Shown: positions 20,386 to 30,138 of the stretch, piece by piece
How the letters are laid out: each line of letters opens with the position of its first letter
Position numbering within the stretch: the stretch's first letter is position 1
DNA from: Allostreptomyces psammosilenae
GTDB lineage: Bacteria > Actinomycetota > Actinomycetes > Streptomycetales > Streptomycetaceae
Length of the DNA: 64,000 nt
Direction of reading: 5' to 3'
NCBI RefSeq assembly: GCF_013407765.1
Contig: NZ_JACBZD010000002.1
Coordinates: forward strand, 630,001 to 694,000
Notes under the pieces: generated by a model
Told to the model about the DNA's origin: nothing
Database searches by the model: none
The model's input: the letters and a program-made list of their open reading frames with translations, nothing else
Translations under genes and position numbers: made by a program

Positions 20386-20570
20386 CGCAAGGGGCATACC
20401 CGCGCCCTGTGGACAACCAAGCACCCCCCTTGTCACCAGGGGTAGCGCGCCGTGAGCTGACTTCGCAAGGGGGAACTTCTGCCTTGTGGATGACCCAGCG
20501 CCCCCCTTGTCACCAGGGGTAGCCCGCCATCGGCTCGCCCCGCAAGGGGGTTCTCCCGTCCTGTGGAGAA
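20386..20570. repeat. 77-bp-period tandem array carrying DnaA-box-like nonamers
   Basis: Nearly three copies of a unit repeat every 77 bp. Each copy has CGCAAGGGG(G) (20386, 20464, 20541) and a TGTGGANNA nonamer (20408-20416, 20485-20493, 20562-20570). Two copies share a perfect 23-bp block (20424-20446 and 20501-20523) containing CACCAGGGGTA. Read on the minus strand, the nonamers are TTGTCCACA, TCATCCACA and TTCTCCACA; the first is the preferred Streptomyces DnaA box. No gene lies in 20250-20860. The array is too short and lacks the spacers expected of a CRISPR. From 20585 to 20760 the plus strand is an extreme C-rich, G-poor tract. Confidence 0.7.
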
Positions 20571-20860
20571 CTCGGTCGCTCCTTCGCCGTCCTCCACCCC
20601 GCCCGCGCCGGCCCCCAACCCCCAACCCCCACCCCCCAACGCATCCCGCCCGCCGGCCCAACCCCCACCCCGCCAGCTGCCCGCACTCCGCCTGGCGCCC
20701 CACCCCACCCCACCCGACCCGCCACCCGGCGCCCTCCGGCCCGCCCCGCCCAAGCCTGGGGAGGCGGAATGGAACGCCCCGCCTCGGGTAGCCGGTGATG
20801 CCGAACGCGGCGGGGCGCGGGGCGCGCCACCGTGCCACGCCCGAGTGAGCAGGAGGCACG

Positions 20861-26900: not shown

Positions 26901-28715
26901 TCAGCCGTCGGTCAGCCGCCCGCCGTCCACCCACACCACCCGGCCGGCCAGGGCCTCGGCGTCGGCGCGGTCGTGGGTGACCAGGAGGCACACGCCGTCG
27001 AACGCCCTCAGGTGCGCCGCCAGCTCCTCCCGCACCGCGCTCCGGGTGGCCGGGTCCAGGGCGGACAGCGGTTCGTCGAGCAGCAGCAACCGGGGCCGCC
27101 GGGCCAGCGCGCGGGCGAGCGCGACCCGCTGGCCCTGGCCGCCGGAGAGCTCGCCGGGCCGACGCGCCGCGAGGTCGGCCAGGCCCAGCCGGTGCAGCCA
27201 CTCCTCGGCCCGCCGGCGGGCGTCCGCGCGCGGTACCCCGGCCGCCCGCGGCCCGTAGGCGACGTTCTCCACCGCGTTCAGGTGCGGGAAGAGCGCCCCG
27301 TCCTGCGGCACCCAGCCGACCGGCCGGGCGTGTGGCGCCAGCCCGTCCAACCGGACCCCGTCCAGTTCCACGGTCGCCCGGGCGGGCGCGGGCAGGCCGG
27401 CGAGCGCGCGCAGCAGCGTGGTCTTGCCGGCGCCGCTGGGGCCGAGCACGGCGACGACCTCCCCGGGGGCGGCGGTGAGCTCGGCGGTGAGCAGCCCCTC
27501 CGTCCGCACCCGGAGGGCGACGGGCGGCGCGGAGGAGGCGGGCCGGCCGGCAAGCGAACGGGGGGACGGGCGGGCGGGCGGAGCGATGGGGAAGGGGGAG
27601 GGGGAGGGGGAGGGGGCCGACGGCTCCGAGGACGGTCGCCGATCGTCCGCCCCGCCGCGCCCGTCGCGCCCGCCACGCCCGCCGCGCCCGCGCCGGCCGA
27701 GCCCGCGCCGCGTCGCGGCGCCCAGCGGCGAGACCCACCGGCCGCGCAGCGCCACCAGCACGGCCGCGGAGACGGCGAGCAGCAGCAGGCTGACCGCCAC
27801 CGCCGCGTCCGGATCCTGCTGCAGCATCAGGTAGACCGCCAGCGGCAGGGTCTGGGTGGCGCCGGGCAGGTTGCCGGCGAAGGTGATGGTGGCTCCGAAC
27901 TCGCCGAGCGCCCGCGCCCAGGCCAGCGCGGCACCGGCCGCCACCGCCGGGCCCACCAGCGGCAGCACCACGGTCGCGAACACCCGCAGCGGTCGGGCGC
28001 CCAGGCTGGCGGCGGCCTCCTCGTAACGGCGGTCCAGCCCGGCCAGGGCCCCCTCCACCGAGAGCACCAGGAACGGCAGGGCGACGAACGCCGCCGCCAG
28101 CACCGCGCCCGGCAGCGAGAAGGTCAGCCGCACCCCGAGCCACTCCAGCACCCCGCCGAGCAGGCCGTTGCGCCCGAAGGCCAGCAGCAGCGCCACCCCG
28201 CCGACCACCGGCGGGAGCACCAGCGGCAGCATCACCACTGCCCGCACCAGCCCCTTGCCCGGGAACTCCACCCGGGCCAGCAGCCAGGCCAGCGGGACCC
28301 CGAGCAGCAGGGCGGCGGCCACCGCGCCGAAGGAGCACCACAGCGAGACCTGCAGCGCCTGGAGCACCGTGGGATCGGCGAGCAGCCCACCGAGCTCCCG
28401 CCACGGCGCGCGCACCAGCAGCCCGGCCAGCGGCAGCACCACCAGGAGCAGCGCCAGCAGCGCGGGGACCAGCAGCAGCGCGGGCGGCCGGACCCGGGCG
28501 GGGCCGGGCAGCGGCGCAGGGCTGGGCAGCGGCGCGGCGCCGGGCGGTGCCCAGCTCGTGGCCGGCCCGCCGGGCCCTCCGGACGGGCGCTCCGCCCGGC
28601 CGGCCTGCTCGGCCAGCCTGGCCTGCTCGTCCCGCCCGGCCAGCCCGGCCTGCTCGTCGTGGTCGGCGGCCCTCCGGTCGGCGTCCCGGGCGGAGGAGGG
28701 GTGGTGGCCGCTCAC
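26901..28715 (-). CDS. modBC: Fused molybdate ABC transporter permease-ATPase (ModB-ModC)
   Basis: Single polypeptide of 604 residues. Residues 1-70 are a cytoplasmic Pro/Ala-rich extension. The ModB-type permease spans about 75-335 with the EAA loop AAASLGARPLRVFATVVLPLVGPA and GEFGATITFAGN. After a Gly/Arg/Ser/Pro-rich linker (about 340-395) comes the ModC-type ATPase: Walker A GPSGAGKTT, Q-loop VPQDGALF, signature LSGGQGQR, Walker B LLLLDEPLSALD and the switch histidine in VTHDRADA. The ATPase stops there and lacks the C-terminal TOBE domain of ModC; a TOBE domain is instead supplied by the regulator gene at 29614. The GTG start overlaps the modA stop by 4 nt. Imports molybdate together with ModA. 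Confidence 0.93.
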   Translation of the reverse strand: MSGHHPSSARDADRRAADHDEQAGLAGRDEQARLAEQAGRAERPSGGPGGPATSWAPPGAAPLPSPAPLPGPARVRPPALLLVPALLALLLVVLPLAGLLVRAPWRELGGLLADPTVLQALQVSLWCSFGAVAAALLLGVPLAWLLARVEFPGKGLVRAVVMLPLVLPPVVGGVALLLAFGRNGLLGGVLEWLGVRLTFSLPGAVLAAAFVALPFLVLSVEGALAGLDRRYEEAAASLGARPLRVFATVVLPLVGPAVAAGAALAWARALGEFGATITFAGNLPGATQTLPLAVYLMLQQDPDAAVAVSLLLLAVSAAVLVALRGRWVSPLGAATRRGLGRRGRGGRGGRDGRGGADDRRPSSEPSAPSPSPSPFPIAPPARPSPRSLAGRPASSAPPVALRVRTEGLLTAELTAAPGEVVAVLGPSGAGKTTLLRALAGLPAPARATVELDGVRLDGLAPHARPVGWVPQDGALFPHLNAVENVAYGPRAAGVPRADARRRAEEWLHRLGLADLAARRPGELSGGQGQRVALARALARRPRLLLLDEPLSALDPATRSAVREELAAHLRAFDGVCLLVTHDRADAEALAGRVVWVDGGRLTDG

Positions 28716-29617
28716 GGGGCGGTGAAGCCGTACTCGCGCAGGACGTCCTGGGCCTCCGCGTCGCTGAGCCAGTCCACGAACTCCTGGGCCGCCTCGGGAT
28801 GGTCACCGGAGCGCACGGTCGCCGCCGGGTACGCGGCGCTGACGTTCTGCTCGGCCGGGACGTCCACGCGGGTCACCTCCTCGCCGGCCGCGACGGCGTC
28901 CGTGCGGTAGACGATGCCCGCGTCCGCCTCGCCCAGCCGGACCCGGGTCAGCACGGAGCGGACGTCCTGCTCCAGCGAGCGCGGGGTGACCGACACCCCG
29001 GCCGCCGTCAGCGCCTGCTGGGCGTAGCCGCCCGCGGGCACCTCCGGCGCGGCCAGCACCACGTCCAGGTCGTCCCGGGCCAGGTCGGCCAGGCCGGTGA
29101 TCCCCTCCGGGTTGCCGGGCCGGACGACCACCGCCAGCTCGTTGCGGGCGAAGACGGCGGGTTCGCCGACCAGGTCCGCCGCCTCCAGCCGGTCCATGGT
29201 GGCGGTGTCGGCGGTGGCGATGACGTCGGCCGGCGCGCCCTGCTCGATCTGCGCGGCCAGCGCCTGGGAGCCAGCGAAGGAGAAGGTCACCTCGGCGCCC
29301 GGGTGGTCCGCCCGGTAGGTCTCGCCCAGCTCGGTGAAGGCGTCGGTGAGCGAGGCGGCGGCGAGCACGGTCAGCGTGGCGCCCTGGGCGCCACCGTCGC
29401 TCCCCGAGGCCGCGCCCGCGGCGCCGGGGTCGGCCGCGCAGCCGGTGACGGCGGCGGCCAGCAGGGCCGTCGCCAGCGCGCCGGCCGCCGCGGCCGGGCC
29501 CCGCCGGCTCCGTCGGCGCCGGCGGGGGAGCGGGTGGGCGGTCACGCGAGCCTCACCGGTCATGGGAGCCTCACCGGCCATGGGAGCCTCACCGGCCAGG
29601 GAAACCTCACCGGTCAT
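28712..29617 (-). CDS. modA: Molybdate-binding lipoprotein with repeated start region
   Basis: Substrate-binding protein of the molybdate ABC transporter, up to 301 residues. The signal region RRRRRSRRG plus hydrophobic stretch ends in the lipobox VTGC. The mature protein has the ModA segments LTVLAAASLTDAFTELG, VTFSFAGSQALAAQIEQGAPADV and the C-terminal AAQEFVDWLSDAEAQDVLREYGF. The coordinates use the ATG that overlaps the stop of the upstream gene (ATGA at 29614-29617). The first codons are an 18-bp tandem repeat, so ATGs at 29581 and 29563 and a GTG at 29545 are also in frame and each follows a GGTGAGG-type ribosome site. The true N-terminus is therefore ambiguous. The stop overlaps the modBC start. 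Confidence 0.92.
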   Translation of the reverse strand: MTGEVSLAGEAPMAGEAPMTGEARVTAHPLPRRRRRSRRGPAAAAGALATALLAAAVTGCAADPGAAGAASGSDGGAQGATLTVLAAASLTDAFTELGETYRADHPGAEVTFSFAGSQALAAQIEQGAPADVIATADTATMDRLEAADLVGEPAVFARNELAVVVRPGNPEGITGLADLARDDLDVVLAAPEVPAGGYAQQALTAAGVSVTPRSLEQDVRSVLTRVRLGEADAGIVYRTDAVAAGEEVTRVDVPAEQNVSAAYPAATVRSGDHPEAAQEFVDWLSDAEAQDVLREYGFTAP

Positions 29618-29622
29618 GGGAG
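29551..29622 (-). repeat. 18-bp tandem repeat containing ribosome site and start codon
   Basis: Four tandem copies (29551-29568, 29569-29586, 29587-29604, 29605-29622) of a unit that on the minus strand reads CTCCCATGACCGGTGAGG with small changes. The unit length of six codons keeps the frame. Each copy has GGTGAGG 5 nt from the next start; three have ATG and one has CTG. A fifth, partial copy leads to the GTG at 29545. Confidence 0.85.
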
Positions 29623-30006
29623 CCTCACGAAGACGTCGGTGGACTTCACCGAGGCGATCGCCTCGACCCCCGGTTCCAGCCCCAGCTCCTCCACGGCCTC
29701 CCGGGTGAGCAGCGAGACCACCCGGTGCGGGCCGGCCTGGATCTCCACCTGGGCGGCCACGTCGCCGAGCACCACCCGGGTGACGATGCCGGGGAAGGCG
29801 TTGCGCGGCGAGGACGTCCGCTCGATCTCGGTGGCGCCCTCGGCGGCCAGCCGGACCGCGAAGGCGGCGAGGTCGGCGCCGTCCACCACCCGGTGCCCGT
29901 GCTGTTCGCGGGTGGTGGGCAGCCGGCCGGCGTCGGCCCAGCGCCGCAGGGTGTCGGGGCTCACGCCGAGCAGCTGCGCCGCGCGGCCGATTCGGTAGTT
30001 CGGCAT
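29614..30006 (-). CDS. MerR-like HTH / TOBE molybdate-responsive regulator
   Basis: Protein of 130 residues. The N-terminal MerR/Xis-type helix-turn-helix is YRIGRAAQLLGVSPDTLRRWADAGRLPTTREQHGHRVV. The C-terminal TOBE (molbindin) domain is about 65-130: RNAFPGIVTRVVLGDVAAQVEIQAGPHRVVSLLTREAVEELGLEPGVEAIASVKSTDV, the pattern that binds molybdate oxyanions. It is placed first in the mod operon, with its stop overlapping the modA start (ATGA). It could repress the operon when molybdate is bound, or store molybdate; both are inference from domain content. The start is ATG 30004-30006, 6 nt after TAGCCT (30013-30018), with no ribosome site. An inverted repeat upstream at 30038-30055 is a candidate binding site. 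Confidence 0.88.
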   Translation of the reverse strand: MPNYRIGRAAQLLGVSPDTLRRWADAGRLPTTREQHGHRVVDGADLAAFAVRLAAEGATEIERTSSPRNAFPGIVTRVVLGDVAAQVEIQAGPHRVVSLLTREAVEELGLEPGVEAIASVKSTDVFVRLP

Positions 30007-30037
30007 GTGCCAAGGCTAGGGCCTGAATGCCTGGCGT

Positions 30038-30055
30038 ATGCGGGGGTTTCCGCAT
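30038..30055. promoter_or_regulatory. Candidate operator in the mod operon promoter region
   Basis: ATGCGG-N6-CCGCAT inverted repeat, 20 bp upstream of the -10 box (30013-30018) of the leaderless HTH-TOBE gene, in the gap to the divergent DUF4245 gene. Its placement over the -35 region suits repression or activation. No known ModE consensus is claimed. Confidence 0.35.
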
Positions 30056-30138
30056 TCTGGGCTCGTGGATGCGGGAATCGGGCCGGTCATCTCCCGTCGC
30101 AGGGGGTGGTGCACGGCCGCGCGGGGCCATGGGGGACC

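Follow-up and report, generated by a model that had tools for sequence, protein, structure and literature searches.

Gene Organization of the modA Locus

The window (the whole 64-kb stretch of DNA from the soil bacterium Allostreptomyces psammosilenae that was analyzed) contains a minus-strand operon in which a regulator gene is followed by the genes of a molybdate ABC transporter:

29614..30006, minus strand: regulator of 130 aa with a MerR-type HTH and a TOBE (Mop-like) domain
28712..29617, minus strand: modA, encoding the substrate-binding lipoprotein of a molybdate ABC transporter, 301 aa when read from the first ATG
29438..29440, minus strand: lipobox cysteine of ModA (AVTGC), by inspection of the sequence
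26901..28715, minus strand: modB-modC fusion (permease and ATPase), with a GTGA overlap with the modA stop

The modA product, which begins with MTGEVSLAGEAPMAGEAPMTGEARVTAHPLPRRRRRSRRGPAAAAGALATALLAAAVTGC when counted from the first ATG, matches TIGR01256 with 155.7 bits (curated cut-off 62.5), and the Mop model matches the regulator below its cut-off. At both gene junctions the stop and the next start share bases (regulator TGA with modA ATG, modA TGA with modB-modC GTG), an arrangement that would be expected of ATGA/GTGA translational coupling. The ModB-ModC fusion (26901-28715) is a single protein of 604 aa, in which a TOBE domain was not detected; in this operon it is the MerR-type regulator that carries the domain. 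Within its N-terminal region, the fusion contains a second in-frame minisatellite (28589-28658), in addition to the junction array described below, for which TRF reports periods of 18 and 27 with scores of 68 and 90, respectively.

On the 5′ side of the regulator (30007-30075, minus strand), recurring GCATNTGC / TTGCANATGC boxes are found ~25-30 bases apart, and the same boxes occur upstream of the regulator in loci L007-L009, L011, L015, L016, L020, L023, L042, and L059; in its strict form, the first box is matched in 16 of 97 loci. A -10-like hexamer (TAxxxT) lies a few bases 5′ of the regulator ATG, which has no SD (duplex -2.5). Boxes and hexamer together suggest that the regulator gene has an operator of the MerR type and that its mRNA is leaderless.

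Tandem Array at the Regulator/modA Junction

The junction between the regulator and modA is occupied by a tandem repeat with a period of 18 bp (29539-29628, minus strand; 5.0 copies, 86% matches), to which TRF assigns a score of 131. Thirty dinucleotide-shuffled copies of the window gave a score of at most 84, and therefore the array is not a product of chance. The minus-strand sequence of the junction is GTCTTC-GTGAGGCTCCCATGACCG-GTGAGGTTTCCCTGGCCG-GTGAGGCTCCCATGGCCG-GTGAGGCTCCCATGACCG-GTGAGGCTCGCGTGACCG-CCCACCC, which divides into five units:

29611..29628, minus strand: unit 1, GTGAGGCTCCCATGACCG, ancestral SD and ATG 29617, overlapping the regulator TGA
29593..29610, minus strand: unit 2, GTGAGGTTTCCCTGGCCG, decayed, with CTG 29599 where a start is expected
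29575..29592, minus strand: unit 3, GTGAGGCTCCCATGGCCG, ATG 29581, SD duplex -8.5 kcal/mol
29557..29574, minus strand: unit 4, GTGAGGCTCCCATGACCG, ATG 29563, SD duplex -8.5 kcal/mol
29539..29556, minus strand: unit 5, GTGAGGCTCGCGTGACCG, GTG 29545, SD duplex -7.6 kcal/mol

Unit 1, which holds the end of the MerR/TOBE regulator, is identical to unit 4 over all 18 bp. The first-pass annotation had described modA as beginning with four tandem copies of a ribosome-site/start unit; the 18-bp minus-strand repeat is as it described, but TRF delimits five units, the second of them with CTG. The four in-frame starts that it listed (ATG at 29617, 29581, and 29563, and GTG at 29545) are all present in one frame, and the first of them does overlap the regulator TGA (29616-29614). 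The GGTGAGG sequence said to precede each start is found in units 2-5, whereas unit 1 carries CGTGAGG.

The array contributes 24 extra residues (MTGEVSLAGEAPMAGEAPMTGEAR) ahead of the lipobox signal peptide of ModA, so that the lipobox cysteine falls at residue 60 when counted from the unit-1 ATG and at residue 36 from the unit-5 GTG. Since the array lies ahead of the lipobox (VTGC, by inspection), the mature lipoprotein would be unchanged, in agreement with the annotation. One could suppose that the repeat was selected as a peptide, a GEAPM[A/T] repeat in the n-region, and not as a set of start sites, as the period of 18 preserves the frame, the encoded repeat is acidic, and other proteins (L129 and L133) also have repeats at the N terminus. 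We regard this as very improbable, given that the peptide would be removed together with the signal peptide and is encoded in no relative.

Repeat Background in the Genome

Tandem repeats were surveyed by TRF in 2.05 Mb, or 31% of the 6.65-Mb genome, with 1,531 genes predicted by a simple codon model. Non-overlapping arrays with a period of 9-60, a score of at least 60, and at least 2.5 copies number 573, including 44 with a score of 131 or higher. Eleven of the 573 span a predicted start, and the modA array is the only one that forms a ladder of SDs and starts. The repeat process is ordinary in this genome, and placement at a start is uncommon. Further copies of the array were sought in the same genome; the other hits matched weakly the GC-rich, Arg-coding sequence that flanks it, and none was another copy. 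The window's top-scoring tandem repeat lies elsewhere (20404-20571; 77-bp unit, 2.2 copies, score 203) and contains TTGTCACCAGGGG.

Ancestry of the Junction

The regulator is present in 96 of 100 relatives, and in most Streptomyces modA is not immediately downstream of it. The nearest relatives (L007-L009) are three species of one genus (Yinghuangia, L007). Their junctions read ACCGTGGAGCTGACGTGA in L007, ACCGTGGAGTTGCCGTGA in L008, and ACTGTGGAGCTGCCATGA in L009, compared with TTCGTGAGGCTCCCATGA here. The stop-start overlap is conserved among all four (ATGA 29617-29614 in Allostreptomyces, NTGA in L007-L009), and the three relatives combine it with a single SD unit (GTGGAGCTGACGTGA in L007, GTGGAGCTGCCATGA in L009). 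No repeat was found at the orthologous junction in L007-L009, and no 18-bp ladder follows the regulator in any other junction read, so the repeat is not maintained in related species, and the array is known from one genome of the genus Allostreptomyces. The first-pass annotation had named a constant copy number across related species as evidence against its proposal; the result does not fit this cleanly, as the array is absent from the relatives and not constant in them.

The single unit of the relatives indicates that unit 1 is the original one and that units 2-5 were gained in the Allostreptomyces lineage. With one unit and no repeat in the nearest relatives, the array is best described as a lineage-specific minisatellite over a start that is predicted to be translationally coupled.

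Initiation Strength of the Units

The SD:anti-SD duplex energy is -5.7 kcal/mol for unit 1 and -7.8 kcal/mol for unit 2, which has no start, and units 3-5 reach -8.5, -8.5, and -7.6 kcal/mol. For comparison, the sequences preceding 1,504 predicted genes have a median of -8.3, and those preceding internal ATG/GTG codons a median of -5.2. The claim that each start has a usable ribosome site thus holds; units 3-5 lie near the gene median and by the SD measure are ordinary initiation sites, and unit 1 is weaker and would rely more on coupling. Initiation at multiple modA units is plausible as judged from these energies. A sequestering RNA structure was also considered and is not supported (fold z-score -1.45, with 17 of 200 shuffles as stable).

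Alternatively, a single start may be used, most likely that of unit 4 or 5, in which case the units upstream of it would form a leader that is seldom or never translated, and the ladder would have no effect. A signal sequence counted from unit 4 or 5 would comprise 35-41 residues, whereas counting from unit 1 extends it to 59, four of them acidic and placed ahead of the Arg-rich n-region, and in Yinghuangia the cysteine lies ~24 residues from the overlapping start. The start picked by the simple gene caller is the unit-4 ATG (29563), and the weakest SD is that of unit 1. Yet the conserved stop-start overlap favors reinitiation at unit 1, and the SDs of units 3, 4, and 5 are nearly equal; we consider the use of one start unlikely.

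Start Ladders in Other Genomes of the Family

We scanned 396 genomes of the family for three consecutive GAGG-N5-RTG units with a period of 18. The pattern occurs in 42 of them, compared with ~46 for the reversed control pattern, a near-equality that rules out enrichment, and most of the arrays sit away from gene starts. Thirty loci were examined for ladders, so that the ladder count is a lower bound: besides modA, at least three 18-bp ladders are located at overlapping stop-start junctions (gene names are from reading the translations, without a family search):

L137: upstream gene ending in RRIFAVARRNP, GTGA overlap; about six units, two of them decayed to GCG
L152: dipeptide-type permease followed by an ATPase, TGATG overlap; five units, with a decayed start (GTT)
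L134: FtsX-like permease followed by an ABC ATPase, GTGA overlap; five GTGAGC units

A single unit was observed in the sister species of L137 and in the relatives of L134. For L152, ~19 relatives whose junction is readable and likewise shows the TGATG overlap carry one unit each, and one further relative has an ATG just past the stop. Three candidates were rejected: in L129 and L133 the repeat lies downstream of the start and codes for an N-terminal part of the protein, and L146 proved on examination of the locus not to be a gene-start ladder.

The same search at periods 16, 17, 19, and 20 gave 22 and 3 matches, one of them at a start. This locus (L315 in genome G404, minus strand, ~1500-1560) carries a 16-bp ladder (GGAGGGGCTCATGACC) where a gene begins, and reading from the first start meets a stop after 11 codons. 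Its earlier starts are out of frame and terminate at a TGA overlapping a later ATG, and the last start alone opens the gene. A search for relatives of L315 returned no locus covering the junction at high identity. Among start ladders of periods 16-20, the ratio of in-frame to frame-breaking cases is 4:1, compared with 33:48 for intergenic arrays of period 18 and of neighboring periods; the difference is not significant (binomial p ~0.095, computed by hand) and can only hint at use of the upstream starts and retention of the frame. In L312 and L326, 16-bp tandem repeats run across the 3′ end of a gene, so that its stop-codon region is multiplied, a mirror image of the start ladder.

Start ladders thus arise sporadically and repeatedly at unrelated coupled junctions, decay, and lack conservation. 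These observations bear on the proposal of the first-pass annotation that gain or loss of units alters the number of initiation sites and thereby tunes the ModA level. Such an expression dial, a counterpart at the level of translation to repeat-based contingency loci, would be in keeping with the four in-frame starts (the SDs of three are close to the gene median), with the position of the array at a coupled junction, and with the identical units, which favor slippage. Against it, the relatives carry a single unit and are not variable, the start of unit 2 is lost, and comparable ladders elsewhere decay, one of them with a 16-bp period that breaks the frame. Tuning by repeat number is not borne out by these comparisons, and we think it quite unlikely.

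Discussion

We consider it probable that the modA array is a lineage-specific minisatellite at a coupled junction, with multi-site initiation yielding one mature ModA and with largely neutral redundancy. The 18 bp across the regulator/modA junction, comprising the last regulator codons with the SD, the ATGA overlap, and the first modA codons, would have been duplicated in tandem from one unit to five, presumably via replication slippage or unequal exchange. The six-codon periodicity preserves the modA reading frame, and the added residues, which precede the lipoprotein signal peptide, would be cleaved off with it, so that the change could be tolerated. Ribosomes finishing the regulator may reinitiate at unit 1, and units 3-5 may initiate independently, giving rise to several precursors of one mature ModA, in which case the redundancy of starts would be largely neutral. 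The lost start in unit 2, the single-unit relatives, the decay elsewhere, and the out-of-frame ladder seem to fit tolerated growth better than a maintained dial. Selection for several starts, or turnover in the recent past, would also be in keeping with the four intact starts out of five with near-median SDs and with the identity of units 1 and 4.

The array resembles the coding minisatellites and VNTRs of high-GC actinobacteria in being a lineage-specific tandem repeat with imperfect copies and a period of 18 bp, a multiple of three, of a kind present by the hundreds in this genome. It differs from them in that the unit includes an SD and a start codon at an operon junction, as in one ladder among 573 arrays. 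In contrast to the usual ATGA/GTGA coupled starts, that of modA has three further copies of itself downstream, each with a start. In repeat-based contingency loci such as Haemophilus lic1, which have several upstream ATGs, the repeats shift the frame and switch expression; the modA array likewise consists of 5′-end tandem repeats with several possible starts, but its period keeps the frame, and it has been seen in a single genome. Bacterial N-terminal proteoforms that stem from alternative starts (PMC11005335) involve several in-frame initiation sites in one gene; the alternative sites of modA are distinct in having arisen by tandem duplication of the first site. Open-access full text contained no description that we could find of duplicated or tandem ribosome-binding or start-site ladders, which is weak evidence of novelty.

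There is a slim chance that start ladders constitute a recurrent, overlooked kind of repeat, formed by slippage that time and again multiplies the SD/start unit in frame at the stop-start overlaps of operons, whose extra starts adjust the ratio of neighboring subunits and leave the mature protein untouched. Should initiation really occur at several sites, an operon could cheaply alter its subunit ratios by gaining or losing a six-codon unit. Even neutral ladders would provide natural experiments on the number of tandem initiation sites that a coupled gene can tolerate. Automatic annotation of start sites is arbitrary at such ladders, as for modA, with its four candidate starts over 72 bases.
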